Shown here: piece by piece, positions 15,020 through 60,388 of the stretch
How positions within the stretch are numbered: position 1 is the stretch's first letter
Layout of the letters: each line of letters opens with the position of its first letter
Source: Nocardia sp. BMG51109
GTDB lineage: Bacteria; Actinomycetota; Actinomycetes; Mycobacteriales; Mycobacteriaceae
NCBI RefSeq assembly: GCF_000526215.1
Contig: NZ_JAFQ01000004.1
Coordinates: 4,588,001 to 4,652,000 of the forward strand
Direction of reading: 5' to 3'
DNA: 64,000 nucleotides
Translations under genes and position numbers: made by a program
Notes under the pieces: generated by a model
Databases searched by the model: none
What the model was told of the DNA's origin: nothing
Seen by the model: only the letters and a program-made list of their open reading frames with translations

Positions 15020-15096
15020 GCGAGCAGGCACGTGGCGTGGGGAACGGGCCACAGCGGGGGCAGCGGCCCGCGCACGCCGGAGGGGGTACGGCATGA
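15016..15096 (+). CDS. Mini-ORF coupled to nadD stop (26 aa)
   Basis: A 26-codon frame whose GTG overlaps the nadD stop (GTGA) and whose own stop overlaps the next ATG (ATGA at 15093-15096). It reads MSEQARG...PAHAGGGTA. It shares its beginning (MS-x-QAR) and end (PA-x-AGG-x-TA) with the last unit of the following repeat ORF, so it looks like the diverged ancestor of that unit. No function is known. It may be translated simply as a relay between nadD and rsfS. Confidence 0.4.
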
Positions 15097-15151
15097 GCGG
15101 TCAGGCCCGGAGGCGGCAGCGGAGTGTGACCACGGAGGGCCCCGCTCATGC
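15091..15151 (+). mobile_element. Palindromic element with terminal inverted repeats (best copy)
   Basis: The first repeat unit contains a 61-bp segment bounded by perfect 10-bp inverted repeats, GCATGAGCGG at 15091-15100 and CCGCTCATGC at 15142-15151. Its interior (GGAGGCGGCAG ... ACCACGGAGG) is closely matched by a second copy inside cysH at 60195-60259, which has its own different but again matched ends. Compensated ends plus a conserved interior suggest a small mobile or formerly mobile palindromic element. Confidence 0.6.
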
Positions 15152-15320
15152 CGCAGTGCGATACCGCATGAGCGGTCAGGCCCGGAGGCGGCAGCGGAGT
15201 GTAACCACGGAGGGCCCCGCTCGTGCCGCAGTGCGATACCGCATGAGCGGTCAGGCCCGGAGGCGGCAGCGGAGTGTAACCATGGAGGGCCCCGCTCGGG
15301 CCGGAGGTGATACGGCATGA
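15093..15320 (+). CDS. Repeat mini-ORF (75 aa) coupled to rsfS
   Basis: A 75-codon frame made of three 25-residue units, each beginning [13 protein letters not shown]. It is preceded by a strong Shine-Dalgarno-like GGAGGGGG (about 15080-15087), and its TGA overlaps the rsfS ATG (ATGA, 15317-15320). The product would be very basic and is not recognised. Because the DNA repeat is exactly 75 bp the frame stays open through all copies, and each unit supplies an internal ATG. Whether the peptide matters, or only translation through the region, cannot be told. Confidence 0.4.
   Translation: MSGQARRRQRSVTTEGPAHAAVRYRMSGQARRRQRSVTTEGPARAAVRYRMSGQARRRQRSVTMEGPARAGGDTA
15303..15310 (+). promoter_or_regulatory. 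Strong ribosome-binding site of rsfS
   Basis: GGAGGTGA is a full anti-16S match, six bases before the rsfS ATG at 15317. It lies in the diverged tail of the third repeat unit and fixes the rsfS start. Confidence 0.85.
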
Positions 15321-15712
15321 CGGCAACCGTGGAAGCGGTCGAGATGGCGCAGACGGCCGCGCGCGCGGCCGACGAGAAGCTGGCGACCGACGTGGTGGTG
15401 CTCGACGTCTCCGAACAGCTGGTCATCACCGACTGTTTCGTGATCGCGTCCGCGCCGAACGAGCGGCAGGTCAACGCGATCGTCGACAACGTCGAGGAGA
15501 AGCTGCGGCTGACCGGGCACAAGCCGGTGCGGCGCGAGGGCACCCGCGAGGGCCGCTGGGTGCTGCTGGACTACGTCGAGCTGGTGGTGCACATCCAGCA
15601 CAGCGACGAGCGCGAATTCTATGGCCTGGAACGGCTGTGGAAGGACTGTCCGCAGATTCCGGTGGACGGGATCGGGGGTCGGCCCGACGACGATGCAGAG
15701 GCCGCCGAGTGA
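15317..15712 (+). CDS. rsfS: Ribosome silencing factor RsfS
   Basis: 131 residues of the RsfS/Iojap family. It binds ribosomal protein L14 and blocks joining of the 30S and 50S subunits when nutrients are short. Typical motifs: DVVVLDVSEQLVITDCFVIAS, VNAIVDNVEEKL, REGTREGRWVLLDY and the L14-contact region HIQHSDEREFYGLERLWKD. Length is normal with a short acidic tail. It is the third member of the nadD-rsfS-gpgP order conserved in mycobacteria; its stop overlaps the GTG of gpgP. Confidence 0.96.
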   Translation: MTATVEAVEMAQTAARAADEKLATDVVVLDVSEQLVITDCFVIASAPNERQVNAIVDNVEEKLRLTGHKPVRREGTREGRWVLLDYVELVVHIQHSDEREFYGLERLWKDCPQIPVDGIGGRPDDDAEAAE

Positions 15713-16416
15713 ATCTGGAACCCGCCGTGCACGATTCCGCGCTACCGAGCGCCCGGCAGGGTAAACACGCCGGAGTTCGACGACTGATCCTGTTGCGGCA
15801 CGGCCAGACCGAGTGGAACGCCGCCGATCGCATGCAGGGCCAGATCGACACCGAGCTGAGCGAGCTGGGCCGCCGCCAGGCCAAGGACGCCGCCCGCGAG
15901 CTGGTCAGCCACGACGCCATCGCCATCGTGTCATCGGACCTGCGGCGCGCCTACGACACCGCGGTCGCCCTGGCCGACCACACCGCCGTGGACGTGGTGC
16001 GCGATCGGCGGCTGCGCGAGACCAGCCTCGGCGAGTGGGAGGGGCTCACGCACATCGATGTGGACGATCGGTATCCGGGTGCGCGCCAGATCTGGCGGCT
16101 CAATGCCGACTACACCCCGCCGGGCGGGGAGAGCAAGCTCGAGGTCGGTGCCCGCGCCCTGCCGGTGGTCGAAGAGCTGTTCGCCGAGCGCACCGACTGG
16201 CCCGGCCGTACCATCATCCTCGTCGCGCACGGCGGGCTGATCGCAGCGCTGACCGCCGCGCTGCTGGAGCTGCCCCATGAGAACTGGCCGGTGTTGGGCG
16301 GGCTGGCCAACACCAGCTGGGTGCAGCTCAGCAGCCACGGTCCGAGCATCGAGCAGCCCGGGTGGCGGCTCGATGTGTGGAACGCGGCGGCAAAGGTAGC
16401 ACCTGATGTCCTCTGA
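15709..16416 (+). CDS. gpgP: Glucosyl-3-phosphoglycerate phosphatase (histidine phosphatase family)
   Basis: 235 residues of the phosphoglycerate-mutase-like histidine phosphatase family. The catalytic RHG motif is LILLRHGQTEWN, with the second catalytic His in ILVAHGGLIAAL and the acid in RETSLGEWEGL. By position (after nadD-rsfS, before an octT-like gene) it is the orthologue of mycobacterial GpgP, which dephosphorylates glucosyl-3-phosphoglycerate to glucosylglycerate, an early step of methylglucose lipopolysaccharide synthesis. The start is the GTG overlapping the rsfS stop (GTGA, 15709-15712). The N-terminal ~22 residues before the core are a short extension. Confidence 0.88.
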   Translation: MNLEPAVHDSALPSARQGKHAGVRRLILLRHGQTEWNAADRMQGQIDTELSELGRRQAKDAARELVSHDAIAIVSSDLRRAYDTAVALADHTAVDVVRDRRLRETSLGEWEGLTHIDVDDRYPGARQIWRLNADYTPPGGESKLEVGARALPVVEELFAERTDWPGRTIILVAHGGLIAALTAALLELPHENWPVLGGLANTSWVQLSSHGPSIEQPGWRLDVWNAAAKVAPDVL

Positions 16417-17839
16417 TAGATCTTCCGACGACCGGGACGAACCGGTCCGGCAGATATCCGACGAATTGCTTCGCAAGGCGTCCGAAGGTCCCGTGCGGCA
16501 CCTACCGGACGACCTGTTCGGTGGCCCGCCACCCGAAAAGCCCGCGCGGCCGGCCGAGCCGGAGTTCGAGCGCGGCGGGGCCGTGCCCGACGAACTGTTT
16601 CGCAAGGAGTCCGATACGCCGGTGCGGCAACTGCCCGACCTGCTGTTCGGCGGGCCGGTGGCGCCGCCCGAATCGCAGGGCGGCGAGGCGGTCCAGCCGG
16701 ATGAGGCGCCCGGCGACTCGGTGACCTCGCCGGAAGCGGTGGTGAGTGCGAGCGCCGGATCCGATGCCGCCGACGCGGCGAACGCTCCTGCCGTGGCGTC
16801 CGATGCCGAGGCCGCAGAGGTGGTCCAGCCGGGCGAGATGCCCGGTGACTCGGTGACCTCGTCGGAAGCGGTGGTGAGTGCGAGCGCCGGACTCGATGCC
16901 GCCGATGCGGCGAACGCTCCTGTCGAGGGTGCTGCTGTGGTGTCCGATACGGGGGTGTCCGATGCCGAGACCGCCGGGCATGTGGCGGGGACGGTCGAGG
17001 ATTCCGCTGTGACCGAATCGGCTGTGCGGCAGCAAGAGCCCGGCGAGAGCCCGCAGGTTTCCGCGTCCGGTGAATCGTCGGCCCCGGCGGAATCGGCTGT
17101 CTCGGCGGAAAGTGCCGCTGTGGAACCTGCCGACGGTACCGCGGCGACGGCTGATGGTGCAGCGGACGCCGCCGGCCCCGAGGCCGTTCCGGAAGCTACG
17201 GCGCCTGATGCGTCGGCGGAGTCGGTCGCAGCGCGGGAGAGCACCGCTGCCGAACCGGCTGATGGTGCGGCGGAGAAGGAGGCCGTTCCAGGCAGTTCGG
17301 TGTCCGATGCGTCGGCTGCGTCGGCGGAATCGGTTGTGCCGCAGGAGCGGACCGATGCTGTCGAGCGGGCGGCTGATGCTGCGGGGGCGGCTGAGGAGCC
17401 GTCGGTGGTCCCGCAGGAGAGTGGCGACATCGAGTCCGGTGACGGCGCTGCGGGGAACGCTGGTGGCGGTGTCGTTCCGCAGGATTCGGTGCCCGACGAG
17501 TCGGGCGTGTCGGCGGAATCGGCTGTGCCGCAGGAGAAGGCCGACGGCGCGGCAGCCGATGGCCGGGACGGCCGGGATGACTCCACGTCCTCCTCGGACG
17601 GGCCGACCGAGGGTTCGCCCGTCGCGGAGGCCGGCGACGGCCCGGGCACGACGGCGCCTCCGGCCGCGCCGACGCCCGGTGGGGCAACGGTCGGCACCGG
17701 GCAGGAAACCCGCGCTGACGAGGCGGGACAACCCGAGCGCCTCGCTCCGGCCGCAGGTGCCGACGCCACAGGGGATGCCGCCGGCGGCGGGAAGCTGCTG
17801 CGGGCCGTGAAGCGGCTGTTCGGAGGGCGATCTACGTGA
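16406..17839 (+). CDS. Acidic, disordered repeat protein between gpgP and octT
   Basis: 477 residues with no recognised family. The N-terminus has a twice-repeated motif of the form [20 protein letters not shown] (residues ~12-32 and ~57-77). A long Ala/Ser/Glu/Asp/Val-rich low-complexity middle follows, including a 44-codon-offset duplication, and the end is basic ([18 protein letters not shown]), resembling an amphipathic helix. No signal peptide or membrane segment. It is real rather than a chance frame because it overlaps gpgP by 11 bases (ATG 16406) and its stop overlaps the octT GTG (GTGA, 17836-17839). Large antisense frames here are shadows. A scaffold or regulator for the methylglucose-polymer enzymes is possible but unproven. 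Confidence 0.75.
16691..16922. repeat. Internal ~100-bp duplication at 132-bp offset
   Basis: Segments 16691-16790 and 16823-16922 are nearly identical and in the same frame. Both encode [25 protein letters not shown] in the disordered protein. This shows growth of the low-complexity region by duplication. Confidence 0.85.
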
Positions 17840-18825
17840 CGCGTTCCGGCCCCGTCGACCCCGATCCGAATGGTCGGCCCACTGGCCCCGAACCCGTCGG
17901 CGCGGACGTATCCGATAGCGCGCAAGCGGTTTCGGGCAGCGCGATCGAGCCCGCCGCGGCCGGCGATGGACAGGCAGCCACGGGTTCGGGGACGTCGTCG
18001 GTGGCCGGTATCGAACCATCCCGCGACGCGGCCACAACCGTCGGCGCCGATCCGGCCGGCCAGGACGTTGCGGGGGCCGGCACCGAGTCGTCGCCGACCG
18101 GTCGGCGGCCGGTGCTGCTGGTGATCGCCGACTCGCTGGCCTATTTCGGACCGCAGGGTGGCCTGGCCGCCAACGATCCCCGGATCTGGCCGAATCTGGT
18201 TGCGGCCGAATTGGACTGGGACGTCGAGCTGGTGGGGCGAATCGGCTGGACCTGCCGCGACGCCTACTGGGCACTCATCGGCGACCCGCGGGTGTGGGCG
18301 GCGGTGCCGCGGGCGGGGGCGGTCGTCTTCGCCACGGGCGGTATGGATTCCCTGCCGTCGCCGCTGCCGACCGCGCTGCGCGAACTCATCCGGTACCTCC
18401 GTCCGCCGTCGCTGCGGCGGGTGGTGCGCACCGGATACCAGTGGGCGCAACCCCGGCTGGCCAAGCTGGGCCGCCCGGTCGCGCTGCCGCCGCGAGTGAG
18501 CGTCGACTATCTGGAGCAGTCGCGAAAGGCGTTGGCGCAGTTGCGTCCCGACCTTCCGATGGTCGCGGTGCTGCCATCGGTGCACGACTGCGAGGCGTAC
18601 GGCCGGGTGCATTCCGGCCGCGAGCCCGCCGTCCGGGCGATGCGCGCGTGGTCGGCGACCACCGCCGTGCCGCTGGTGGATCTGGCGGAAGCTGTGCGCG
18701 ACAACATCTTCGGCGGGGAATCCAATCCGGACGGCATTCACTGGGGCTGGGAGGGGCACGACGCGGTGGCCCGCGCGATGGTGAAGGTGCTGTCGGAGGT
18801 CGGTGAGCCCGAGGGCGGTGCATGA
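17836..18825 (+). CDS. octT: OctT-like diglucosylglycerate octanoyltransferase (SGNH fold)
   Basis: 329 residues. From residue ~93 on it is an SGNH/GDSL-type domain: block I is [12 protein letters not shown], a [12 protein letters not shown] strand follows, and the C-terminal catalytic Asp/His block is [16 protein letters not shown]. In mycobacteria the gene at this position (Rv2418c) transfers octanoyl groups to diglucosylglycerate in methylglucose lipopolysaccharide synthesis; the assignment here rests on position and fold. The first ~90 residues are a Gly/Ala/Pro/Asp-rich disordered extension resembling the upstream disordered protein in composition. The GTG at 17836 overlaps the upstream stop; an internal start near residue 90 cannot be excluded. 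Confidence 0.78.
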
Positions 18826-18884
18826 GCCGCACCCTTCCGGATCGCCAGCCCCGCACCGCCGGTCACCGGGAGGCCGGGTAGCGG

Positions 18885-19727
18885 ATGGCCGTCGTCGTGG
18901 TGACCGACTCCTCCGCCAGCCTGCCCGCCGATCTCGTCGCGGACCTGGGCATCGTCGTCGTGCCGCTGCACGTCCTGGTGGACGGCCGCGCGATTCGCGA
19001 GGGCGTCGACGACGAGCCGATCGACTACACCTCCTCGACGGTGACGACCTCGGCGGCCGCACCGGGTGAGCTGGGCGCCGCCTACGAGCGAGCCCTGGCC
19101 CGCAGTGGCGGCGACGGTGTTGTGGCCGTGCATATTTCACGCCGGCTGTCGTCCACCTGGGAGGCCGCCCGGCAGGCGGTCCGCGATGTGGATGCCGCCG
19201 ATCGGGTGCGGCTGGTGGATTCGCTGAGCGCCGGGCTCGGCACGGGACTGCCGGTGCTGGCGGCCGCCCGCCGGGCGCGGGCGGGGGCCGACCTCCGGGC
19301 GGTATACGACGCCGCCACCTCCGCCGCGACCCGCGGCCGGGCGTTCATCGTGGTCAACCGGACCGAACAGCTGCGCCGCGGCGGCCGCCTGAGCTCGGCC
19401 GCCGCCTTCTTCGGCACCGAACTGGTCACCAAACCCATCCTGCACATAGTCGACGGCCGCCTGGAACTCCGCGAGAAGGCCCGCACCCGCTCCAAGTCCT
19501 ACGCGAAACTCGTTGCCGCGGCAGTGGATGCGGCCGGCGACGACGGCGCCGCGGTGGCCGTCCAGCACCTCGGCGCCCCCGAGGCCGCCGCCACCATCAC
19601 AACCCAGCTGACCGACCTCATCCCCGGAATCGACGAACTGATCACCGCCGAATTCGGCCCCACCCTGGCCGTCCACCTCGGCCCGGGCGCGGTGGGGGTC
19701 CTGGTCGTTCCCGGCGGCTGTAGTTGA
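18885..19727 (+). CDS. DegV family fatty-acid-binding protein
   Basis: 280 residues of the DegV family, which bind a fatty acid and, in Firmicutes, serve as the FakB subunit of fatty acid kinase. Typical features: MAVVVVTDSSASLPADL at the start, VVAVHISRRLSSTWEAA, DSLSAGLGTGL and NRTEQLRRGGRLSSAAAFFG. Its place after octT matches Rv2417c in M. tuberculosis, where an acyl-chain role fits. The ATG at 18885 lies 59 bases after octT and follows GGGAGGCCGG. Confidence 0.92.
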   Translation: MAVVVVTDSSASLPADLVADLGIVVVPLHVLVDGRAIREGVDDEPIDYTSSTVTTSAAAPGELGAAYERALARSGGDGVVAVHISRRLSSTWEAARQAVRDVDAADRVRLVDSLSAGLGTGLPVLAAARRARAGADLRAVYDAATSAATRGRAFIVVNRTEQLRRGGRLSSAAAFFGTELVTKPILHIVDGRLELREKARTRSKSYAKLVAAAVDAAGDDGAAVAVQHLGAPEAAATITTQLTDLIPGIDELITAEFGPTLAVHLGPGAVGVLVVPGGCS

Positions 19728-19931
19728 GGGCCACCGAACCCCTGATCCACCGGGCCGTCGCTCTCCCCGTCGAACTGTCCCGACTCATGGCGAAACGGAA
19801 GTCACGGCGCATCGACTCGGTGTAGGGAAAACGGCCTCTTCGGCACCATTCCGGATGACATTGTGCATGTGGATTTGCCAACCCGGCAACAATGTTTGAC
19901 CGAACTGGCTGGGCGGGCGCATGGTCGAGGC

Positions 19932-20774
19932 ATGGACCACGATCATGACTTCGATTGGGCCGCCATGGCGGACATGCTGGTGGACGAGGGGGAGGCGTAC
20001 AGCCCGTATCTGGTTGCCGCGTTCGATCGGCTCGCGGATCCGGAGCCGAAGCGGATTCTGGATATCGGGTCCGGACCCGGTGTGGCGGCGTGTCTGCTGG
20101 CCGAGCGGTTTCCGGGCGCCGAGGTGATCGCGGTGGACGGGACACCGGAGTTGCTGGCGCGTGCCGAGGAGCGGGCCGGGCGGCTCGGGGTCCGGCTGCA
20201 GACGCAGGTGGCGGAGTTTCCGGCCGGTCTGGGCGAACTTCCCGAGGCCGACCTGGTGTGGTCGGCGAATGTCGTCCATCATGTCGGTGATCAGCAGGGC
20301 GCGCTGACCCGGATGGCCGCGCTGCTGCGTCCGGGCGGGACGCTGGCCATCGCCGAGGGCGGCCTGCCGACGCGGTGGCTGCCCCGTGACATCGGATTCG
20401 GCCGCCCCGGCCTGCAACTGCGGCTGGAGGTGGCGATGGCGGAACGGTTCGACCGCATGCGCGCCGAACTACCCGATTCCGCGCCGGTGACCGAGGATTG
20501 GCCCGCCATGCTGCGCGCGGCCGGCCTGGTCGAGGCGCACAGCCGCAGCTTCCTGGTCGACCGTCCCGCGCCGCTGGAGGAGGGCCCGCGCCGCTCGGTG
20601 CGCCAGTGGTTCGAACGCCTTCGCGGCATGCAGGCCGACCATCTGGACCCCGACGACCGCGCGGCGCTGGACCGCCTACTGAACCCCGATGATCCGCAGA
20701 GCATCGATCGCCGCCCGGACCTCTTTCTGCTGACCGCCCGGACCGTCCATTACGCCCACCGCCCAGCGGGCTGA
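19932..20774 (+). CDS. Class I SAM-dependent methyltransferase
   Basis: 280 residues. Motif I is ILDIGSGPGVAACLLAERF, the acidic loop VIAVDGTPELLARAEE, and the post-I DLVWSANVVHHVGDQQGAL and LRPGGTLAIAEGGLP follow. The C-terminal third is an extra helical lid, as in methyltransferases acting on small molecules. The ATG at 19932 is preferred over the frame opening at 19863 because the added residues show no homology. It sits where mycobacteria carry eis, so it is a lineage-specific insertion in the conserved block. Confidence 0.82.
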   Translation: MDHDHDFDWAAMADMLVDEGEAYSPYLVAAFDRLADPEPKRILDIGSGPGVAACLLAERFPGAEVIAVDGTPELLARAEERAGRLGVRLQTQVAEFPAGLGELPEADLVWSANVVHHVGDQQGALTRMAALLRPGGTLAIAEGGLPTRWLPRDIGFGRPGLQLRLEVAMAERFDRMRAELPDSAPVTEDWPAMLRAAGLVEAHSRSFLVDRPAPLEEGPRRSVRQWFERLRGMQADHLDPDDRAALDRLLNPDDPQSIDRRPDLFLLTARTVHYAHRPAG

Positions 20775-21158
20775 TCGCAGGCGATTAGCGAGCTGCCAGT
20801 GGATTCCACTCCCGCGACGAGAGCATCGAGGCCACGTCAGCTGCCGACGACCTGAGCTGCCCGAGCCGCTGGAGAGCGATTCGAGAAGGGTGCTGTGCTG
20901 TCGACGCCCAGGTTGCCGTCCCGATGTCCGTGGCGGCTCGCGCTACGACCGATGTCGCGGGTGGCGGACGGTCCGGATGACCGCGTCGGGGTCGTTCTGC
21001 TGTCGGCCGCACGGAAGGGCCGGCCGATACCAGATCGGTGTGACAGGTGATGGGTGATCCCGGGTGTGTTGTGCACAGGGAGTTCCCTGTCCCCAGGGTT
21101 GCCGAAAGCCCTTGTCGGCCGGGTCGTTCAGGCGGTTGGTCTGCCTACGTTGGTCCGC
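20775..21158. other. Intergenic region before comEA
   Basis: These 384 bases hold no convincing gene, terminator or repeat. Open frames here are antisense or lack protein-like character. The comEA promoter should be near the 3' end. Confidence 0.5.
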
Positions 21159-22142
21159 ATGGGGCGAAACGAGGAGCGGAGGCGGGTGCGGGAGCGGCTA
21201 GGGGCGCTCGCCGCGGGGCCCGGCGGGACACGGGCCGTGCCCGGCGGGCGGTGGGATCGCGACGAGGCGGAACCGGGCGAGCTCGACTCCGGCGAGCCGG
21301 GTCATGACGACGGCCGCCCGGACCGGTGGGACGAGACGGTCGAGGGCCCGCGCACTCCGCAGTGGCTGAGCGAACCCTCCGGTGCTCTCTCGCTGTGGCA
21401 CGAGCGGTTGGTCCCCGAGCGTTTCCGGGGGACCAGGCTCGACCCCGGACGACGGGGCGTGCTGGTGCTGGCCGCGGTGGGGCTGGTGGCCGTACTGCTC
21501 GCGGCCGCCGCGGCACAGCGGGAAAGACCTGTGGCGCAACCCGTTCCGCCGCTGCCGGCCGTGCGTACCAGCGCGGTGCCGAGTCCGGCCGGGGCGGCGG
21601 AACCGGCGTCCGCGCCGACCGCCGCCGCATCGTCCGGCAGCGCTCCGGCCGCACCGGCCAGCGACCGGGCCGCCGAGCTGGTGGTGAGTGTGGTCGGACT
21701 CGTCGAGCATCCCGGACTGCTGCGTCTGCCACCCGGTTCCCGTGTGGCAGACGCCCTTTCGATCGCCGTCGCCAAGGACGGCGCCGACCTCGCGAGCCTG
21801 AACCTCGCCCAGCGCCTCGCCGACGGCGACCAGATCGCCGTCGGCGCCCTCGGGCCTCAGCCGGGCCCGCCGCAGATGGGAAGCGTGGTCGTTCCGGGCG
21901 GCCGGACCTCTTCCGGCGGAGGGACTCCCGGACAGCCCACCGGCCCGCCCGCGAAGATCGATCTGAACGCCGCCGCCGAGTCCGAACTCGACGCACTGCC
22001 CGGCGTCGGCCCGACCACAGCGCGCGCGATCGTCGCCTGGCGCACCGAACACGGCCGCTTCACCAGCGTCGACCAACTCGCCGAGATCACCGGAATCGGC
22101 CCGGCCCGATTGGCCCGCCTCCGCGATTCGGTGACGGTATGA
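21159..22142 (+). CDS. comEA: ComEA-like helix-hairpin-helix DNA-binding protein
   Basis: 327 residues. A charged N-terminal cytoplasmic part (~1-97) precedes one membrane helix ([20 protein letters not shown], ~100-120), a Pro/Ala linker, a SLBB domain ([20 protein letters not shown] onward), and a C-terminal double helix-hairpin-helix ([20 protein letters not shown] ... [18 protein letters not shown]). This is the standard ComEA layout, binding DNA outside the membrane and passing it to ComEC. The ATG at 21159 is chosen; the frame extends to 21054 without homology. Order with comEC and holA is conserved in mycolata. Natural competence itself is unproven. Confidence 0.9.
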
Positions 22143-22447
22143 ACTCCGGGGGCGCTGCGCCGACGACGTGCCGCTCCCCGCAGATGCGCGTACTCATCGA
22201 CGCCGTCCGCGCGGTATGGGCACCGCGAGCGGCGGATGGCGTGCCCAGCGTCCAGGCGGTTCGGGGTCGAAGCGTCGCACCGAGATCGGTGACGAACGCA
22301 CGCCGGCAACGAAATCGGTGATCAGCGGTGTGACAAGTGAAGCCGGAGGCGTATTCGAGCCGACGGCGAAATCGGTAATGGAACCTGGGCCGAGGGCGCG
22401 GCCGGTGACGGCTGGGCCGGCGGTGAGGTCGACCGGCGGCGGGATCG
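22143..22447. other. Intergenic region comEA-comEC
   Basis: A 305-base gap unusual for this normally tight pair. No gene or terminator is recognisable. Short phrases of the type GAAATCGGT/AGATCGGTGA recur but no clear repeat unit emerges. Confidence 0.45.
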
Positions 22448-24061: not shown

Positions 24062-24156
24062 TGCGCGCCGCGGGCAGCGACCGCTCGTGGCCCGGCGGGC
24101 CGTCCTCGGTTCGGGGGATGCCGATCCTGTCGGACCTCACCCGTAGGATCGTGCCC

Positions 24157-25125: not shown

Positions 25126-25135
25126 CCGGCCTGTC

Positions 25136-26275: not shown

Positions 26276-26283
26276 GTTACGAC

Positions 26284-26364
26284 ATTGTGCGGTGGCTACC
26301 GCGAAGGGATATTGTGCGGTGGCTACCGCGAAGGGATATTGTGCGGTGGCTACCGCGAAGGGAT
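26284..26364. repeat. 27-bp tandem repeat, 3 copies, abutting the rpsT stop
   Basis: Perfect units at 26284-26310, 26311-26337 and 26338-26364. The last unit ends exactly where the rpsT stop codon (26365-26367) begins. Each unit contains the small hairpin GCGGT/ACCGC, so the rpsT 3' UTR would carry three hairpins before its terminator. Confidence 0.95.
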
Positions 26365-50233: not shown

Positions 50234-50669
50234 TTCGTGTTGTCCGGGGCGAGAGTGCGTGTCTCACACCAGAACCGATCGGTCCGTTTGGAATGGGGGA
50301 AATGCCGGATCGACTCCTTCTCGCATCGATAGCAACCTTTCAGTCATTCAGATTTTCCGGTCTTGTTCTGTGTGGCATGTGATCGTTTTGGATTCACAAC
50401 AGCGCACCGGTCGGTATGTATCGGTAATTACTGGGAAGTAGCTGGTTTCGGCGCAAATTTGCCGTTTGGGTACGATTTCAAATCCATTCGAAGGCTTGCA
50501 TGTCCGCCTATCAGGCATTTCATGATGTAGACCAGCGGGTATGAAAGTTTTTCCGCCCGTTCGGTATTGACCACCGACAATTGCCAGCTAACCTGTGGTC
50601 GCTGTTTGGAAAACGACCGCGACCACATGGATCGTCTTCGTGGGGCCGTGGTCTCGGTGCGTTGACGGG
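50234..50669. other. AT-rich gap before the second Hsp70-like gene
   Basis: 436 bases clearly richer in A and T than the rest of the window (for example around 50320-50590), with no credible gene. It must hold the promoter of the Hsp70-like gene. The change in composition suggests foreign or regulatory DNA, but no site can be named. Confidence 0.55.
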
Positions 50670-52718: not shown

Positions 52719-52800
52719 CCACCCGGCGCGCGGTCGCCGCGCCCACACCCGAACTGGCGCCGCTGATCAGCACCACCTCGGTTTCGAACCGCGCACTCAT
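52719..52800 (-). pseudogene. 5' remnant of a short-chain dehydrogenase gene
   Basis: From the ATG at 52800, preceded by AAAGGGGAG, the frame reads MSARFETEVVLISGASSGVG and then AATARRVV, the classical Rossmann start of an SDR enzyme. After ~29 codons homology stops exactly where the convergent Hsp70-like gene ends. The rest of the enzyme is absent, so the gene was cut when the two segments were joined. Confidence 0.75.
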
Positions 52801-52946
52801 CGACTCCCCTTTCCCTGTCTTTCTTGCGATTTCGTTGACGCGATCCAGTAGGCCCACCGACCGGCAGCCGATCCGGCGGAAGCCGAACGTCGTGTTGATG
52901 TGTCATGCGTTGCCGGGGGCGGTTTTCCGGGCGGACACTGGAACGG

Positions 52947-53666
52947 GTGGATACCAGAATCATCGGCACCGTGATGCCGGTGCTCGAGGTCACCCTGCAG
53001 CCGGACGACCGGGTGATCGCGGAGGCGGGGCAGCTGTCGTGGATGAGTGAGTCCATCCGGCTGCGCACCTCGTCACGGGTCATGGCAGGCGGCATGTTCG
53101 GCGCCGTGCGGCGCGCCTTCGCCGGCGCGGGATGGTTCATGACCGAATACTCCGCCGCTCGCCTGCCGGGGACGGTGGCCTTCGCCGCGAAGCTGCCCGG
53201 CCAGATCGTGCCGGTCGCCGTGCGGCCGGACGCGGAGTATCTGGTGCATCGGCACGGATTCCTGTGTGCCACCGGCGATGTGCGGGTGGCGCTGAGTTTT
53301 CAGCGCCGCCTGGGCGCGGGGATCTTCGGCGGGACCGGATTCACGCTGCAGCGGATCGGCGGTGCGGGAAACGCCTGGGTGGAGTTGTCCGGCGAGGTCG
53401 TGACCTACGACCTGGCGCCGGGGCAGACGCTGCGCGTGCACCCGGGACATGTCGGAATGTTCGAGGCCGGTGTCGATTTCGACATCACCGTGCTGCGCGG
53501 CATCCGCAACATCCTGTTCGGCGGCGACGGCCTGTTCCTGGCGGCGCTCACCGGGCCGGGCCGGGTGTGGCTGCAATCGCTGACGATGAGCAGCCTGGCA
53601 CACGCGGTCACGCCGTACCTTCCGCTGCCGGAGGCCGGCGATCGGCAGCGCGAGCACGGACAGTGA
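52947..53666 (+). CDS. AIM24 / TIGR00266-family protein
   Basis: 239 residues of the AIM24 beta-rich family. Typical features are VLEVTLQPDDRVIAEAGQLS, a Gly-rich turn after the first sheet, FLCATGDVRVALSFQRRLGAGIF and LFGGDGLFLAALTGPGRVWL. Members are of unknown function (the yeast homologue affects mitochondrial inner-membrane organisation). The GTG at 52947 is the best start; the frame from 52905 adds unrelated residues. It is followed after 34 bases by a HAD phosphatase. Confidence 0.85.
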   Translation: MDTRIIGTVMPVLEVTLQPDDRVIAEAGQLSWMSESIRLRTSSRVMAGGMFGAVRRAFAGAGWFMTEYSAARLPGTVAFAAKLPGQIVPVAVRPDAEYLVHRHGFLCATGDVRVALSFQRRLGAGIFGGTGFTLQRIGGAGNAWVELSGEVVTYDLAPGQTLRVHPGHVGMFEAGVDFDITVLRGIRNILFGGDGLFLAALTGPGRVWLQSLTMSSLAHAVTPYLPLPEAGDRQREHGQ

Positions 53667-53700
53667 CGAAGATGCAAGTGCATCTGCATCATCGGTAACA

Positions 53701-54507
53701 ATGGGGCGGGTGGAGACAGCAGAACCCCCGCAGTTGATAGCGCTCGATGTGGACGGCACCCTCATGGCGACCGGGGAACAGATCAGTGCCCGGGTACGGG
53801 ACGCGGTCCGGGCGGCGGTCGCGGCCGGGGCGCACGTGGTGATCACGACCGGCCGCACGCTGCTGGCCACCCGGATGGTGGTCGAGGAGCTGGGTCTCGG
53901 CGCGGGCCGGGCGCTGTGCTCGAACGGGGCTGTGCACGTGGATATTTCGAACTGGGAGCCGCTGTCGGTGCACACCTTCGACCCGGAGCCCGCGGTGGCG
54001 GTGCTGCGCACGCTGTTCCCCGACATGGTGCTGTCGGTGGAGAAGGTCGGCATCGGCACCTGGACGACGGGGTACTACCCCGGCAGCTTCCGGCTGGGCG
54101 AGTTCCGGTTCGTCGACGACCATCAGCTGAGCCTGGAACCGACCACGCGGTTGAACGGCTGGTGGCCGGGCGGCACGCTGACCGACATGGTGGAGGTGAT
54201 GGCCGAGCAGAACCTGCCCGGCGCGGGCTGGGTGCACGGCGAGCACGAGCCCTGGCTGGTGGCCTCCAAACTGGGCGTGACCAAGGGCTGGGCGCTCGAG
54301 CAACTGCGTCGCGAACTCGGTATCCCGCCCGAGGTCACCCTCGCGATGGGCGATGGCTACAATGATCGCGAAATGCTCGCCTGGGCCGGACATTCCGTGG
54401 CCATGGGCAATGCGGTGGACCCGGTGCTGGAACTGGCCGACGAGATCACCGCCGACGTCGGGGAGGACGGCGTGGCAGTCGTGCTCGAGCGCTGGTTTCA
54501 TAACTGA
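53701..54507 (+). CDS. Cof-type HAD-IIB hydrolase
   Basis: 268 residues. HAD motif I is LIALDVDGTLMATG, motif II ITTGRT, motif III Lys in GVTKGWALEQL, motif IV LAMGDGYNDREMLAWAG. The C2B cap lies in the middle. Such enzymes dephosphorylate sugar phosphates or nucleotides; the substrate is unknown. The ATG at 53701 or the GTG at 53710 may start it. Just upstream, GATGCA and TGCATC form a short inverted repeat (53669-53690) of unknown meaning. Confidence 0.9.
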   Translation: MGRVETAEPPQLIALDVDGTLMATGEQISARVRDAVRAAVAAGAHVVITTGRTLLATRMVVEELGLGAGRALCSNGAVHVDISNWEPLSVHTFDPEPAVAVLRTLFPDMVLSVEKVGIGTWTTGYYPGSFRLGEFRFVDDHQLSLEPTTRLNGWWPGGTLTDMVEVMAEQNLPGAGWVHGEHEPWLVASKLGVTKGWALEQLRRELGIPPEVTLAMGDGYNDREMLAWAGHSVAMGNAVDPVLELADEITADVGEDGVAVVLERWFHN

Positions 54508-54629
54508 CCGGTCGGGTCGTCGCCGATGCGGCCCGTTCGGAGGTAGGATAGGCGGCCGAGTGTGGTTACATCGGGGCGTACACCGGCTACCGTACCGCCA
54601 CACCATCACGAGTATCGGGAGACGACCTC

Positions 54630-55520
54630 ATGGCTGCAGAACCCACACGGTTCGGCCAAGTCGAGCAGACCGTCGTCGAGCGTGGCCCGACGGCATTGCG
54701 TATCGCGGTCGGCGGACAGTTGCGCAAGCTACGCGAGTCCCGGGGCATCTCCCGGGAGGACGCGGGCGAGCACATCCGTGGTTCGCATGCCAAGATCAGC
54801 CGGCTGGAGCTGGGCCGGACGGGTTTCAAGGAACGCGACATCCGCGACCTTCTGACGCTGTACGGCATCGTCGATCCGGAGGAGCGTGAGCCGTTCCTGG
54901 ATCTGGTCCGCAAGGCCAACGAGCCGGGGTGGTGGCAGCGGTTCGGCGATCTACTACCACAGTGGTTCGAGACCTACATCGGTCTGGAGCATGCCGCGGA
55001 GTCGATCAGAACCTTTGAGGCCCAACTGATTCCGGGCCTCCTGCAGACCGAGGACTACACCCGTGCGGTCGTCTCGCTCGGCCACGGCAAGGACGCGCCG
55101 CGCCGGGTGGAGCTGCGTCGGCGTCGGCAGGAGGTGCTGGAGCGGTCCGGCGGGCCCGGGCTGTGGGCGGTGATCGATGAGGCGGTCCTGCATCGGGCGA
55201 TCGGCGGCCGGGCCGTGCTGCGGGGGCAGCTCGAGCATCTGGCCGAGCTGTCGAACAGGAAGAACCTGACCATTCAGGTGTTGCCCTTCGAGGTCGGCGG
55301 GCACGGTGCGGCGGGCAGTTCGTTCACGATGCTGCGCTTCGCCGAGCCGGAATTGCCCGATCTGGTTTATCTCGAGCATCTGACCAGCGCGCTGTACCTG
55401 GATCGCCCGCGTGACCTGGAGATGTACCGGCAGGTCATGGACACCCTCAGCATGCAGGCGGCGACGCCGGAGCAGTCGCGCCAGATCCTGCTGAAGAGGG
55501 CCACCGAGCTCGGGGAGTAA
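54630..55520 (+). CDS. XRE-family regulator with DUF5753 domain
   Basis: 296 residues. An N-terminal helix-turn-helix (QLRKLRESRGISREDAGEHI, then SHAKISRLELGRTGF) precedes the long DUF5753 domain (LEHAAESIRTFEAQLIPGLL; ITIQVLPFEVGGHG-like NLTIQVLPFEVGGHGAAGSS). These regulators are typical of Streptomyces and Nocardia and often pair with a small DUF397 protein; the small gene that follows here is not DUF397-like. Targets unknown. Confidence 0.9.
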   Translation: MAAEPTRFGQVEQTVVERGPTALRIAVGGQLRKLRESRGISREDAGEHIRGSHAKISRLELGRTGFKERDIRDLLTLYGIVDPEEREPFLDLVRKANEPGWWQRFGDLLPQWFETYIGLEHAAESIRTFEAQLIPGLLQTEDYTRAVVSLGHGKDAPRRVELRRRRQEVLERSGGPGLWAVIDEAVLHRAIGGRAVLRGQLEHLAELSNRKNLTIQVLPFEVGGHGAAGSSFTMLRFAEPELPDLVYLEHLTSALYLDRPRDLEMYRQVMDTLSMQAATPEQSRQILLKRATELGE

Positions 55521-55588
55521 CGCCCCGGGCGCCGACCCGCGAGAGTGCCCTTCGCGGATCCGACGGTTCCATGCTGCTCGATTCCTGG

Positions 55589-55620
55589 ATCTGCCGGAAG
55601 GGGCATCTACCGGAAGGGGC
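55589..55620. repeat. 16-bp tandem duplication
   Basis: ATCTGCCGGAAGGGGC and ATCTACCGGAAGGGGC lie side by side (55589-55604, 55605-55620) just upstream of the next start, doubling a purine-rich tract. Confidence 0.85.
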
Positions 55621-55629
55621 AGGGACAAC

Positions 55630-55908
55630 GTGATAGGGCCGGATCGCCAGTTGGCGCAGCAGCGGACGAGAGCGCTCGCGGAACTGTCCGAGTTGCGCAC
55701 GATGCTGGGTAGGCTGCCGGAGGACGACCGAGGCTACGACGAACTCGCCGTCCGGAAAAGGGTGGCCGCCGCCGAGGCGTTGAACCTGGGCGTCCCCGAC
55801 CAGACGGTGCGGACTGTGGGCATGCTCGACGACCTGGAGTTCCAGCGGGCCCAGCGCGAGGCCGCGGATTTCCGCGACTACGACGCCGAGCTATACGAGG
55901 ATGGCTGA
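55630..55908 (+). CDS. Small helical hypothetical protein
   Basis: 92 residues, helical and charged (QQRTRALAELSELRTMLGRL; DDLEFQRAQREAADFRDYD), no membrane segment and no recognised domain. The GTG at 55630 is the only reasonable start. It may be expressed with the XRE regulator 109 bases upstream. Confidence 0.5.
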   Translation: MIGPDRQLAQQRTRALAELSELRTMLGRLPEDDRGYDELAVRKRVAAAEALNLGVPDQTVRTVGMLDDLEFQRAQREAADFRDYDAELYEDG

Positions 55909-55971
55909 GCCCGCCGTTGTGCGGAGTCGCAGCCTCGGGCGATCCGTGGGGTAGTCGCGCACCACCGCATC

Positions 55972-56135
55972 GTCATTCCGGCGTGCTGATGGCCGGAATT
56001 CATTGCCGCTGTGGGTGGCCGGAGTCCGCTGTTGTCGCGGGTGGCCGGAATTCATTGCCGCCTTGGGTGGCCGAATCCACTGTCTCCATGTAGTGGCCGC
56101 ACCGTGGATCCCGGCGGTGTGCCGGAATGGCGGTT
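55972..56135. repeat. Degraded palindromic repeats (family 2)
   Basis: GTCATTCCGGCGTGCTGATG begins a left arm like those at 37737 and 57020, and GGATCCCGGCGGTGTGCC near 56106 is a matching right arm. Between them the phrase GGCCGGAATTCATTGCCGC occurs twice and GGGTGGCCGGA three times. Confidence 0.55.
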
Positions 56136-56203
56136 CGACGCGGTCGGATCACAAGGAGACGCTCGAATCTGCCGCGGTCCCGGGCGGTCGAGCGCGCCCC
56201 GGC

Positions 56204-57124
56204 TCAGGCGGACAGATCCAGGGTAGGCGTTATGGCAGCCGCATATCTGTCCAGCGCCACCTCGGCGAGAAGCGGGTGTGCGCCGATGGTTTCCGCGTGC
56301 CGGAGATCGGCGGCCGCGGTGCGCAGGCGATCGGTGAGCAGGCCGGGGGCGAGGAACCACGGGGCCACCAGCACACGATCGCAGCCGCGGTCGCGCAGGC
56401 TCGAAACCGCCTCGGCCGGGCCGGGTTCCGTGGTGGCGAAGCAGACGGTGGTCCGCCAGGCGGTGCCGGCGGCGAGCAGGTCGCCGATCCGTGTCGTGCG
56501 GCGGTTGGCCGCGGCCGAGGACGATCCGACGGCGGCGACCGCGATTCCGGTGCGTTCGTCGCGCGGGTCGGCACCGGCGGCGACGATGCGGTCGCGCAGC
56601 GCGGTGACCAGGCGCGGATCGGTGCCGAGGACATCGGCCTGGGTCAGGCGCAGGCGCGGGTGCCGAACGCCGGCGGTGGCCAGCAGGCCCGGCAGATCGA
56701 CACGGGCGTGAAATGCGCTGCCCAACAGGAGCGGAACCACCACGGCGTCGGTATGTCCCTGGGCGGCAACGGCATCCACGACCTGCTCCACCGAGGGGGT
56801 GTTCAGATCGAGAAACGCCGGCCGGACGTCCAGGTCGGGACGCCGCACGGCGATATCGGCGACCACGGCGGATATCGTCGCGGCCGAACGGGGATCGCGG
56901 CTGCCGTGCGCCACGGCGATCAGCGCCGGCCTGCCCCGCCGGGCATTCTCGCCGCCGTTACTCCGGAAGCTTTCCCTCTCGTTCCGGACGCCCTCTCGAT
57001 CGTTCCGGAGGCTCTCCCCGTCATCCCGGTATGCTTGTGGCCGGAATCCCGCCGTACGCTGTGGATCCCGGCCACGGGCATGCCGGGATGACGGGCCGTG
57101 CCGGGACGCGGGCAGCGAACTCAT
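56204..57124 (-). CDS. Sirohydrochlorin chelatase-like protein (CbiX/Che1 type)
   Basis: 306 residues. From residue ~68 it is a two-lobed CbiX/SirB-type chelatase: ALIAVAHGSRDPRSAATISA with the metal-binding His, DAVVVPLLLGSAFHARVDLP in the first lobe, and VAAVGSSSAAANRR and VLVAPWFLAPGLLTDRL in the second. It matches Rv2393 (che1) beside sir-cysH in M. tuberculosis and would insert iron into sirohydrochlorin to make siroheme for Sir. The first ~60 residues are not family sequence: they read through a palindromic repeat (57020-57092) and a degenerate unit (LRNDREGVRNERESFRSN). The ATG at 57124 is one base past the cysN stop. Confidence 0.82.
   Translation of the reverse strand: MSSLPASRHGPSSRHARGRDPQRTAGFRPQAYRDDGESLRNDREGVRNERESFRSNGGENARRGRPALIAVAHGSRDPRSAATISAVVADIAVRRPDLDVRPAFLDLNTPSVEQVVDAVAAQGHTDAVVVPLLLGSAFHARVDLPGLLATAGVRHPRLRLTQADVLGTDPRLVTALRDRIVAAGADPRDERTGIAVAAVGSSSAAANRRTTRIGDLLAAGTAWRTTVCFATTEPGPAEAVSSLRDRGCDRVLVAPWFLAPGLLTDRLRTAAADLRHAETIGAHPLLAEVALDRYAAAITPTLDLSA
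57020..57092. mobile_element. Palindromic element with 30-bp arms (family 2)
   Basis: The arms 57020-57049 and 57063-57092 are inverted repeats matching at 26 of 30 positions around a 13-base centre. The arms begin GTCATCCCGG and end GCCGGGATGAC. The element lies inside the 5' coding region of the chelatase-like gene. Related, more degraded arms occur near 37737 and 55972. Confidence 0.7.
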
Positions 57125-57125
57125 C

Positions 57126-58427
57126 TCAGCTGCCGGCTTCCGTGCCCACCTCGACGGCGGTCAGGACGTCGCCCACCAGCCCGGCTGCGAGCGTGTTGCC
57201 GCCCGACGGGTCGATGAGCAGGAAGCTGCCGGTGTGCCGGTTGACGCGGTAGTCGTCGGCGACGACCGGATCGGCGACGCGCACCGAGACGCGGCCGATA
57301 TCGTTGAGCGCCAACGATTCCGGGTCGGGATCGGCGGCCAGGTTCTGTTCGTCGAAACGCTCCAGCAGCGCGCCGACGATGGCCTGGGTGGTGCGGGTGC
57401 CGTGCTTGAGCAGCAGCCGCGCACCCGGGCGCAGCGGTTTGTCGCCCAGCCAGCAGACCGTGGCGTCGAACGAGTCCAGCGGTTCCGGAGCATCGATGGC
57501 CGAGGCGATGATGTCGCCGCGGGAGATGTCGACGTCGTCGGTCAGGATCAGCGTGACGCTGCGGCCCGGCTGCGCGGTGGCCAGTTCGCCGTCCGGGGTG
57601 TCGATCCGTTCGATCGTGCTGCGGATGCCCGACGGCAGCACCACGACCTCGTCACCCTTCGACACCGCGCCCGCGGCAACCTGTCCCGCGTAGCCGCGGT
57701 AGTCCGGGTGCTCGGCGGTGCGCGGGCGGATCACATACTGCACCGGGAACCGCAGCCCGACCTGATGCGGGCCGGAGCTGTCGGCGTCGACCGGCACCGA
57801 CTCCAGGTACTCGATGAGCGACGGCCCGTCGTAGAACGGCGTGTTCTCGGAGCGCGACGCGACATTGTCGCCGTGCAGCGCGGACACCGGGATCTCCACC
57901 ACGTCCTCGGGCGCCCAGCCGAGTCGCGTGGTGAGTTCGGTGAATTCGGCCGCGATCTCGGCGAACACCCCGGCCGCGTCGTCGACCAGGTCGATCTTGT
58001 TCACGGCCAGGACGAGCCTCGGCACCCCCAGCAGCGCCATCACCGCGGCGTGCCGGCGGGTCTGCTCGATCACACCCTTGCGGGCGTCGACGAGCAGAAT
58101 GACCAGCTGGGCCGTCGATGCCCCCGACACCGTGTTGCGGGTGTACTGCACATGACCCGGGGTGTCGGCCAGCACGAAGGTCCGCCGGGGCGTGGCGAAG
58201 TAGCGGTACGCCACATCGATGGTGATGCCCTGCTCGCGCTCGGCGCGCAGGCCGTCGACGAGCAGCGACAGGTCGGGGGTGGACAGGCCCCGGTCGACCG
58301 ATGCGCGGGTGACGGCGTCGATCTGGTCGGCCAGAACGGATTTCGTATCGAAGAGAAGACGTCCGACCAGTGTGGACTTGCCGTCGTCGACGCTGCCGGC
58401 GGTGGCCAGTCGTAACAGGTCGGACAT
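57126..58427 (-). CDS. cysN: Sulfate adenylyltransferase large subunit (GTPase)
   Basis: 433 residues. An EF-Tu-like GTPase that drives sulfate activation to APS with CysD. G1 GSVDDGKSTLVGRL, G3 ADTPGHVQYTRN, G4 AVNKIDL and the beta-barrel domains are complete. Unlike mycobacterial CysNC it has no fused APS kinase, fitting the presence of an APS reductase (CysH) in the operon. The ATG at 58427 overlaps the stop of a mini-ORF by one base (TGATG). Confidence 0.95.
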   Translation of the reverse strand: MSDLLRLATAGSVDDGKSTLVGRLLFDTKSVLADQIDAVTRASVDRGLSTPDLSLLVDGLRAEREQGITIDVAYRYFATPRRTFVLADTPGHVQYTRNTVSGASTAQLVILLVDARKGVIEQTRRHAAVMALLGVPRLVLAVNKIDLVDDAAGVFAEIAAEFTELTTRLGWAPEDVVEIPVSALHGDNVASRSENTPFYDGPSLIEYLESVPVDADSSGPHQVGLRFPVQYVIRPRTAEHPDYRGYAGQVAAGAVSKGDEVVVLPSGIRSTIERIDTPDGELATAQPGRSVTLILTDDVDISRGDIIASAIDAPEPLDSFDATVCWLGDKPLRPGARLLLKHGTRTTQAIVGALLERFDEQNLAADPDPESLALNDIGRVSVRVADPVVADDYRVNRHTGSFLLIDPSGGNTLAAGLVGDVLTAVEVGTEAGS

Positions 58428-58543
58428 CAGAAATAACCCTCTCGCTTGCGGTCCTCCATCGCGGCCTCCGAGACGCGGTCGTCGTCTCTCGAGGAGTGGG
58501 CACTGCGCGCCGCGTTCGGTCTGGTGGCTGGTGCGGTGTGCAT
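58427..58543 (-). CDS. Mini-ORF 2 carrying a copy of the CysD C-terminus (38 aa)
   Basis: 38 residues: MHTAPATRPNAARSAHSSRD followed by DDRVSEAAMEDRKREGYF, the last 18 residues of CysD. Its ATG overlaps the previous mini-ORF stop and its stop overlaps the cysN ATG, both as TGATG. It arose by tandem duplication. Translation is likely through coupling; function of the peptide is doubtful. Confidence 0.5.
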   Translation of the reverse strand: MHTAPATRPNAARSAHSSRDDDRVSEAAMEDRKREGYF

Positions 58544-58720
58544 CAGAAGTAGCCCTCTCGCTTGCGGTCTTCCATTGCCGCTTCCGAGACGCGGTCGTCG
58601 TCTCTTGGGGAGTGGGCACTGCGCGCCGCGTTCGGTCTGGTGGCTGGTGCGGTGTGCATCAGAAGTAGCCCTCTCGCTTGCGGTCTTCCATTGCCGCTTC
58701 CGAGACGCGGTCGTCGCCTC
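58428..58720. repeat. 116-bp tandem duplication of the cysD 3' end
   Basis: The TGATG junction recurs at 58425-58429, 58541-58545 and 58657-58661, a period of 116 bp. Each unit has about 60 bp of cysD 3' coding sequence plus about 56 bp of other DNA; the third, cysD-proximal copy is the true gene end and lacks the 56-bp part. Confidence 0.92.
58543..58659 (-). CDS. Mini-ORF 1 carrying a copy of the CysD C-terminus (38 aa)
   Basis: 38 residues nearly identical to the following mini-ORF (SPRD instead of SSRD), also ending in the CysD tail. The ATG overlaps the cysD stop as TGATG (58657-58661). Together the two mini-ORFs relay translation from cysD to cysN. Confidence 0.5.
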   Translation of the reverse strand: MHTAPATRPNAARSAHSPRDDDRVSEAAMEDRKREGYF

Positions 58721-59600
58721 GGGTGGCCCCGCGTTCGGTCAGCCTCGACGCGGCGACCTCGGCGAGGATGTCCTCGTTGGTCGCGGCGGTCGACAGTATT
58801 GCGCCCGTGGTGGATCCGTCGCCGACGGTGCGGTAGCGCACCGATTTCACGACCAGTTCCTCGTCGTCGCGCGGGCCGCCCCACGAGCCGGGCGTCATCC
58901 ACATGCCGTCGCGCTGGTAGACGGGGCGCTCGTGGGCGTAGTAGATCGTCGCGAGGTCGATGTTCTCGCGGGCGATGTAGCGCCAGATGTCGAGTTCGGT
59001 CCAGTTGCTCAGCGGGAACACCCGCACGTGCTCGCCCGGCGCGTGCCGGCCGTTGTACAGGTTCCACAGTTCGGGGCGCTGCCGCTTGGGATCCCAGCGC
59101 CCGAACGCGTCGCGCAGCGAGAAGATGCGTTCCTTGGCGCGGGAGCGTTCCTCGTCGCGGCGGCCGCCGCCGAATACCGCGTCGAAGCGGTTGTCGGCGA
59201 TGGCGTCCAGAAGGGGCACCGTCTGCAGCGGGTTGCGGATGCCGTCGGCGCGCTCGGTCAGCCGGCCGTCGGCGAGATACTGCTCGACCGCGGCGACGTG
59301 CAGGCGCAGCCCGTACTTCTCGACGACGCGATCGCGGAACTCGAGCACCTCCGGCAGGTTGTGCCCGGTGTCCACGTGCAGCACCGCGAACGGCAGCGGC
59401 GCCGGCCAGAACGCCTTGAGCGCCAGGTGCAGCAGCACCGTGGAGTCCTTGCCGCCGGAGAACAGGATCACCGGCCGCTCGAACTCGCCCGCGACCTCGC
59501 GGAAGATATGGATCGCTTCGCTCTCGAGTGCGGCCAGGGTGTCGAAGTCCTCGAGCGAGGCGAGAATGGCGGACTCGGTTTCGGTAACTGGTGTACTCAT
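58659..59600 (-). CDS. cysD: Sulfate adenylyltransferase small subunit
   Basis: 313 residues. The PP-loop SGGKDSTVLLHLALKAF binds ATP; FGGGRRDEERSRAKERIFS and FPLSNWTELDIWRYI are typical. With CysN it makes adenosine 5'-phosphosulfate. The ATG at 59600 overlaps the cysH stop (ATGA). The C-terminal tail EDRKREGYF is the family norm and is the part duplicated downstream. Confidence 0.96.
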   Translation of the reverse strand: MSTPVTETESAILASLEDFDTLAALESEAIHIFREVAGEFERPVILFSGGKDSTVLLHLALKAFWPAPLPFAVLHVDTGHNLPEVLEFRDRVVEKYGLRLHVAAVEQYLADGRLTERADGIRNPLQTVPLLDAIADNRFDAVFGGGRRDEERSRAKERIFSLRDAFGRWDPKRQRPELWNLYNGRHAPGEHVRVFPLSNWTELDIWRYIARENIDLATIYYAHERPVYQRDGMWMTPGSWGGPRDDEELVVKSVRYRTVGDGSTTGAILSTAATNEDILAEVAASRLTERGATRGDDRVSEAAMEDRKREGYF

Positions 59601-60388
59601 GACGCGTGCAACCCGCATTCGGTCTTGGCGAGGCCGGCCCAGCGGCCGCTTCGCGGATCGGATCCCGGTTCCGGCTTCCGCGTGCACGGAGCGCAACCGA
59701 TGGACGGATACCCCTCGTCGACCAGGGGATTGACGAGAATGCCGTGCTCTTCGATGTACGCGGCCATCTCGTCGTCGGTCCAGGCGGCGATCGGGTTGAT
59801 CTTCACCAGGCCGAAACCCTCGTCGAAGGAGATCAGGGGCGCGTTGGCGCGGGTAGGGGACTCCACCCGGCGGATGCCGGTGACCCAGGCGTTGTAGCCG
59901 GACAGCGACCGCTTCAGCGGCACCACCTTGCGCAACCGGCAGCATTCGCCCGGATCGCGCGCGAACAAATCCTTGCCGAGCAGCCGATCCTGTTCGGCCA
60001 CGGTGTTTTCCGGCTCGACGTTGACGATATTCACGCCGTAGACGGTCTCGACGGCGTCGCGGGTGCCGATGGTCTCGGCGAAGTGGTAGCCGGTGTCCAG
60101 GAACAGGATGTCGACACCCGCGCGGACCTGCGCCGCCAGGTGTACGAGCACCGCGTCCTGCATATTCGACGCGACGATGTAGCCGCATCCATTGGGCCCG
60201 CTCGGGGGGCCTCCGTGGTTACGCTCGGCTTCCGCCTCCGGCCCCTGACCGAGCGGGCCGCGCCCGAACGTGTCCTCGGTCCACCGCAGCAGCTCGGCCG
60301 CCGAGGCTTCCGGACCCAGTTGCGCCGCACCGTCTTCCGCGATTCTGCGCAGTTCGTCCTCGGAGAGTTTGTCCGAAGTGGTTGCCAT
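59597..60388 (-). CDS. cysH: APS reductase with in-frame palindromic insertion
   Basis: 263 residues. Assimilatory adenylylsulfate reductase: the iron-sulfur cysteines are in ECCRLRK and IGCAPCTRKP, and the C-terminal catalytic Cys in KTECGLHAS, which marks the APS (4Fe-4S) rather than PAPS type. It makes sulfite from APS with thioredoxin. Between LLRWTEDTFG and YIVASNMQDAV lies GQGPEAEAERNHGGPPSG, which is the translated palindromic element 60195-60259; M. tuberculosis CysH has an unrelated sequence in this loop. The ATG at 60388 is 15 bases from the sir stop. Confidence 0.95.
   Translation of the reverse strand: MATTSDKLSEDELRRIAEDGAAQLGPEASAAELLRWTEDTFGRGPLGQGPEAEAERNHGGPPSGPNGCGYIVASNMQDAVLVHLAAQVRAGVDILFLDTGYHFAETIGTRDAVETVYGVNIVNVEPENTVAEQDRLLGKDLFARDPGECCRLRKVVPLKRSLSGYNAWVTGIRRVESPTRANAPLISFDEGFGLVKINPIAAWTDDEMAAYIEEHGILVNPLVDEGYPSIGCAPCTRKPEPGSDPRSGRWAGLAKTECGLHAS
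60195..60259 (-). mobile_element. Palindromic element inside cysH, in frame
   Basis: Perfect 11-bp terminal inverted repeats, GGCCCGCTCGG and CCGAGCGGGCC, bound a 65-bp segment whose interior matches the element at 15091-15151 (shared GTCAGG, GGAGGCGG, ACCACGGAGG in the same order). The 63-bp core is 21 codons, so the cysH frame is kept. It falls in a variable surface loop. Confidence 0.75.

Follow-up and report, generated by a model that had tools for sequence, protein, structure and literature searches.

The genome of Nocardia sp. BMG51109 carries a family of short palindromic repeats with a unit of about 75 nt, recognised in a 64,000-nt stretch of contig NZ_JAFQ01000004.1 (positions 4,588,001 to 4,652,000; hereafter the window, with coordinates counted from its first letter). 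The element is spread through Nocardia genomes, both between overlapping genes and in frame within housekeeping enzymes. We consider it, with a probability of roughly 80%, to be a non-autonomous mobile palindrome that unites the behaviour of two known types of repeat, the mycobacterial interspersed repetitive units (MIRUs) and the Rickettsia palindromic elements (RPEs). The original prediction for this DNA had described two palindromes, one between nadD and rsfS and one within cysH; both lie where it placed them, with the arms that it gave. Its comparison with RPEs holds for the copies within genes, which are in frame, occur in many genes, are absent from the orthologues of relatives and have kept their pairing, but it missed the commoner habit of the element, which is insertion at the overlapping stop/start codons (NTGA) of operons.

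The conserved core proposed for the two palindromes was matched four times in the window at up to three mismatches and not once in 100 shuffles, and 33 times in the whole genome against none for the reversed control pattern, results which together rule out chance palindromes. With a covariance model (R1) built from 27 copies of this genome, at least 71 matches were obtained here at E≤0.01 and at least 89 at E≤1, 150 of 15752 first-look candidates being scored, so that the further copies which had been expected are indeed present. R1 matched all 78 sampled genomes of the genus (this one included), with 1 to 62 matches each among the 63 candidates scored per genome, while a second model (R2), built from in-gene copies, matched 39 of 39 same-genus genomes. 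There are also 23 places with the element in a 2.66-Mb record of N. farcinica, and these, together with the nearest CysH proteins among those listed, are the basis for identifying the genus as Nocardia. When strict filters were applied to a family sample of 151 genomes, R1 was found in all 10 of the same genus and in one of the 141 from other genera. This lone match is a 66%-complete genome (G014) with eight matches, three of them in tandem (L068, L075 and L083), which may represent spread beyond Nocardia or contamination. The phage collection searched and Rfam gave no match to the element.

Between nadD and rsfS the element is present as predicted, not as a single element of 61 nt but as a tandem array of three units of 75, 75 and 74 nt (15093-15316, plus strand). 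The features of this region are as follows.

14321-15019, plus strand: nadD, the upstream gene, an open reading frame (ORF) with an uncertain start, found beside rsfS in relatives too
15016-15092, plus strand: candidate diverged first unit, 77 nt, beginning with GTGA on the nadD stop
15093-15167, plus strand: array unit 1, 75 nt (model match 15088-15159, E 1.9e-16)
15091-15100 and 15142-15151, plus strand: outer arms of unit 1, 10 bp each
15168-15242, plus strand: array unit 2, 75 nt (model match 15163-15234)
15243-15316, plus strand: array unit 3, 74 nt, directly abutting the rsfS start codon (model match 15238-15309)
15093-15320, plus strand: open frame of 75 aa across the array, with a TGA that overlaps the rsfS ATG (ATGA, -4 nt)
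15317-15712, plus strand: rsfS, the downstream gene, an ORF whose neighbourhood with nadD is conserved in relatives

The names nadD and rsfS are those of the original prediction and are tentative. To judge from its letters, a fourth, diverged unit at 15016-15092 probably precedes the three-unit array, and its open frame terminates on the ATGA of unit 1. This candidate was scored by neither R1 nor R2, and is missing from the six relatives (of 12) in which nadD and rsfS overlap by 4 nt (-4). Five further relatives have other spacers here, and the remaining one (G152) has a single unit of its own, also scored by the model, which is apparently an independent copy at the same target.

The same arrangement recurs at many operon junctions. 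Arrays were classified with a home-made codon-score script from 83 matches in this genome (E up to 0.12) and from 29 and 53 matches in two others, G314 and G373 (E≤0.01). The upstream stop codon falls exactly within the NTGA of the element in 19 of 54 arrays here, 9 of 19 in G314 and 15 of 27 in G373 (43/100 overall), and among the remaining non-genic arrays both flanking genes are co-oriented with the element in 17/21, 8/10 and 9/12 cases, respectively. Where relatives lack the element, the underlying junction can be seen: the empty L015 site is an NTGA overlap in all eight relatives, and the empty qcrC-qcrA site is an ATGA overlap in all seven, as read from the letters. At the L125 site two of five relatives (G161 and G154) have copies of their own, apparently independent of the one in this genome. 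The 65 tandem periods of the three genomes all lie within 66-78 nt except for two that involve degenerate copies (83 and 114 nt), and none is shorter than 66 nt. All but one (64/65; 29/29 here and 35/36 in G314 and G373 together) are 0 or 2 modulo 3, which fits stop and restart or fusion of the reading frames, although as proof of selection the pattern is weakened by the common descent of a unit of 75 nt. By eye, 9 of the 15 NTGA arrays of G373 have a unit tail that ends in AGGA or AGGG just ahead of the start codon.

The copy in cysH is a single unit, and it is in frame as had been proposed; its length is 75 nt or 25 codons rather than 21 codons.

59597-60388, minus strand: cysH, phosphoadenylyl-sulfate reductase, 263 aa with the insert
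60182-60256, minus strand: cysH insert, 75 nt, in frame, encoding the 25 residues PLGQGPEAEAERNHGGPPSGPNGCG (model match 60189-60261)
60249-60259 and 60195-60205, minus strand: arms of the cysH insert, 11 bp

In keeping with an insertion, the segment is missing from cysH of all 12 relatives aligned, and no 25-residue insert is present in any of the 120 CysH homologues listed (of 7894). The residues between the landmarks that bracket the site number nine in 109 of these homologues, 10 in one and 18-21 in the other 10, compared with 34 in the CysH of this genome; since the homologues themselves vary here, the site tolerates changes in length. An AlphaFold model of CysH was uninformative, with a mean predicted local distance difference test score (pLDDT) of 38.

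Such insertions are not confined to cysH, with 13 of the 54 arrays here (16 copies) lying in frame and in the sense orientation within genes and one lying antisense. The sense count becomes 12 if L121, which two classifications place differently (in a gene or between genes), is doubted, and it leaves out a PH-domain gene (L089) with three copies in an open frame. Hosts named by Pfam are cysH, acs, murE, cds (a PALP enzyme), glnE, manB (three copies), adenosine deaminase, glpD and an AAA ATPase. Further hosts, judged from their sequences, are a probable non-ribosomal peptide synthetase (NRPS), a probable fbiC-like protein and a protein resembling a membrane transferase, the last having no Pfam match. 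The insert is missing from cds in 5/5 relatives and from glpD in 7/7 (75 columns, with the gap misplaced by the aligner), as well as from acs in seven of eight; the eighth, G158, has a copy with other arms in the same place, apparently an independent arrival at the same target. For murE, 10 of the 11 relatives examined lack the insert. The eleventh (L130, in G152) has, close to where the element lies in murE of this genome, an insertion of another kind that is roughly 60 nt long.

Among 61 loci from other genomes, which were chosen by score and length and are not a fair sample, there are 63 arrays, comprising eight in genes in sense, 10 in genes in antisense, 21 at NTGA junctions and 24 others; three of the eight sense arrays (L361, L381 and L396) are N-terminal only. 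Hosts identified there with NCBIfam profiles include IleRS (partial), Ffh, GuaB3, CydB, ArgD and SdhA, together with release factor 3 (a partial match, with the insert near the N-terminus) and an acyl-CoA dehydrogenase-like protein (matched below the cut-off only). The empty sites in relatives described above are those of hosts in BMG51109. In each of the seven units tested, three or four of the six reading frames are open. In the NRPS genes of two species (L391 in G365 and L395 in G154), antisense copies occupy the same place, with two units in one and one in the other, and some in-gene copies may thus be old or recurrent.

In the predicted fold, an outer stem (10-12 pairs) is followed by an unpaired TCA, an inner stem (about five pairs) and a conserved loop. 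The letters of the arms vary from copy to copy, yet the arms still pair. That the ends differ while always pairing had been claimed from the two palindromes, and it extends to the family as strong covariation: 86 copies (83 from this genome and three from relatives, fitted to the model) have 133 cells in which both sides have changed, against 29.9±4.3 when shuffled, with 88.6% paired, the shuffles leaving relatedness among copies uncorrected. The corresponding figures are 31 against 6.0±2.1 for 27 copies (26 distinct), and 33 against 10.5±2.5 for the 18 in-gene copies alone, of which 89.3% of positions pair compared with 33-49% when the arms are slid. The idea that arms are generally copied from the host is rejected, since the same arms can turn up at sites unrelated to one another; CGCCCGAGCGG, for example, is shared by murE of this genome and acs of G158.

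Three features speak for movement of the element: the empty sites are clean, the hosts are scattered and the same target has been used more than once. Its copy number, empty sites, reading frame, geometry and covariation are observed; that it transposes, that it couples the translation of its neighbours and that its hairpin has a role we infer. In the scheme proposed, the element would often insert in sense orientation at the NTGA stop/start overlaps of operons. It would maintain downstream translation there with an ATG and an open frame of its own, a Shine-Dalgarno-like tail and the ATGA that follows; units of 74 or 77 nt would do so through stop and restart, and units of 75 nt through in-frame fusion. 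After insertion the units would multiply locally in tandem, this growth being probably later than the insertion itself. Copies without a TGA would enter coding genes on either strand, where their survival may be owed to a unit length of 75 or 72 nt and to an open sequence in three or four of the six frames. The covariation suggests that compensatory change preserves the hairpin, and the simplest reason would be that the mover recognises a folded strand. A bolder and rather doubtful extension is that the hairpin picks the targets in an enzyme-driven reaction, base-pairing to the target strand through an arm or the unpaired TCA with a preference for NTGA stop/start overlaps, and that the element, which can be translated in most frames, is a genus-wide source of new 25-residue segments in essential proteins of a free-living bacterium.

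The ends of the element have only NTGA or GC in common with the target. At the position after TGA, 33 of 37 first units resemble the downstream start compared with 51 of 62 internal units, and at each of the next two positions 28 of 37 do so compared with 46 and 43 of 62, although some of the rows counted as host may be decayed units. With first units barely nearer to the downstream start than internal ones, these 37 arrays give no consistent sign of a longer target-site duplication. The qcrC-qcrA array, whose outer ends bear host letters that its internal units lack, is alone in hinting at one.

A number of observations weigh against a mobile palindrome of this kind. The Y1 transposase domain (PF01797), the one transposase family searched, has no match in this genome (5/14 control genomes were positive), which leaves mobility by a REP-associated tyrosine transposase (RAYT) unsupported, and the target-site duplication suggested as a check at empty sites was not found in consistent form beyond NTGA or GC in the 37 arrays compared for a longer one. 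Not every vacant site has the expected geometry: the five relatives with other spacers between nadD and rsfS have no -4 overlap there, and the L099 site in 8/8 relatives consists of TAA or TAG plus a spacer, with no NTGA overlap. One of the 65 tandem periods equals 1 modulo 3. The in-gene habit is uneven, with none of the 19 arrays of G314 and none of the 27 of G373 in this class. Finally, the structure was drawn from the same sequences that were used for covariation, and the slid controls flatter it.

Other explanations were weighed against the same evidence. If the repeats were regulatory RNAs that act in cis at operon junctions, and the copies within genes were strays, the conserved loop, the covarying stems, the sense orientation of most junction copies and the AGGA or AGGG tail near the downstream start (9/15 in G373, by eye) would be accounted for; yet the downstream genes are unrelated, most orthologous sites examined lack the element, the in-gene copies lie on both strands and Rfam has no match, making this very improbable. 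A minisatellite spread by short-match recombination or gene conversion, without transposition, would explain the tandem arrays and targets that share GC or NTGA only, and is consistent with the finding of no enzyme (PF01797 being the family looked for). Scattered single copies at sites almost without homology to the element, and the occurrence, in different species, of copies with unlike arms at one and the same target, make it an improbable account all the same.

A third possibility is that the repeats are true MIRUs by descent, common to Nocardia and the mycobacteria. The unit lengths of 74-77 nt compare well with the 77-bp MIRU units described in two papers (PMC2453075, PMC4213456), and the start-codon, -4 nt geometry is like that given in a review (PMC12548453). 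Against this, R1 under strict filters was found in just 1/141 other-genus genomes of the family, and such a shared ancestry would seem unlikely. A putative MIRU fragment used as a query gave five matches, all non-mycobacterial, and a MIRU04 primer had no exact match in 401 family genomes or in 396 genomes of genus g29, probably Mycobacterium. A mobile palindrome remains the preferred reading.

The window also contains other repeats. There is a 132-bp repeat in two copies that are 85% alike (16665-16928) within a 477-aa ORF, a three-copy 116-bp tandem repeat (58425-58772), whose other two copies match the first at 93% and 63%, where the gene that lies downstream of cysH ends, and tandem repeats at 26281-26364 (27-bp spacing) and 55985-56073 (26-bp spacing).

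No description of the element in Nocardia was found in the literature searched, which excluded most subscription papers, and comparison with known systems was made from their descriptions. With short palindromes in many copies, it resembles the repetitive extragenic palindromic (REP) elements moved by RAYTs. These are of 20-40 bp (PMC3733652), whereas the Nocardia unit is of 75 nt and its genome has no Y1 transposase match (PF01797). Set beside miniature inverted-repeat transposable elements, which have terminal inverted repeats and a target-site duplication, it has pairing arms, and the match of its ends to the target is limited to NTGA or GC.

RPEs are described as repeats of 100-150 bp that sit in ORFs without breaking the frame (PMC3767692). 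The Nocardia element is likewise palindromic, present in many copies and found within pre-existing ORFs with the frame intact; it differs in being 75 nt long, in belonging to an actinobacterium rather than to Rickettsia and Wolbachia, and in being found mainly at NTGA junctions and as tandem arrays. MIRUs are described as repeats of 40-100 bp, often in tandem (PMC2734929), with units of 77 bp and also of 53 bp (PMC2453075, PMC4213456), apparently mobile and inserted at start codons, with coupling of an internal ORF at -4 nt (PMC12548453). Their range is given as M. leprae and the tuberculosis complex only (PMC4213456) or as many mycobacteria (PMC12548453). The Nocardia unit length and tandem habit fall within that description, and the ORF at 15093-15320 overlaps the rsfS ATG by the same -4 nt. 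Where MIRUs are repeats of mycobacteria, the element is one of Nocardia, and its in-frame copies within genes and covarying two-part hairpin may set it further apart. The empty sites in relatives make both the movement of the repeat and the tolerance of proteins for sudden in-frame inserts directly testable. The element works like both MIRUs and RPEs and is filed as neither, and one family in one genus thus joins two separately described classes of repeat, those found at start codons and those found in proteins.

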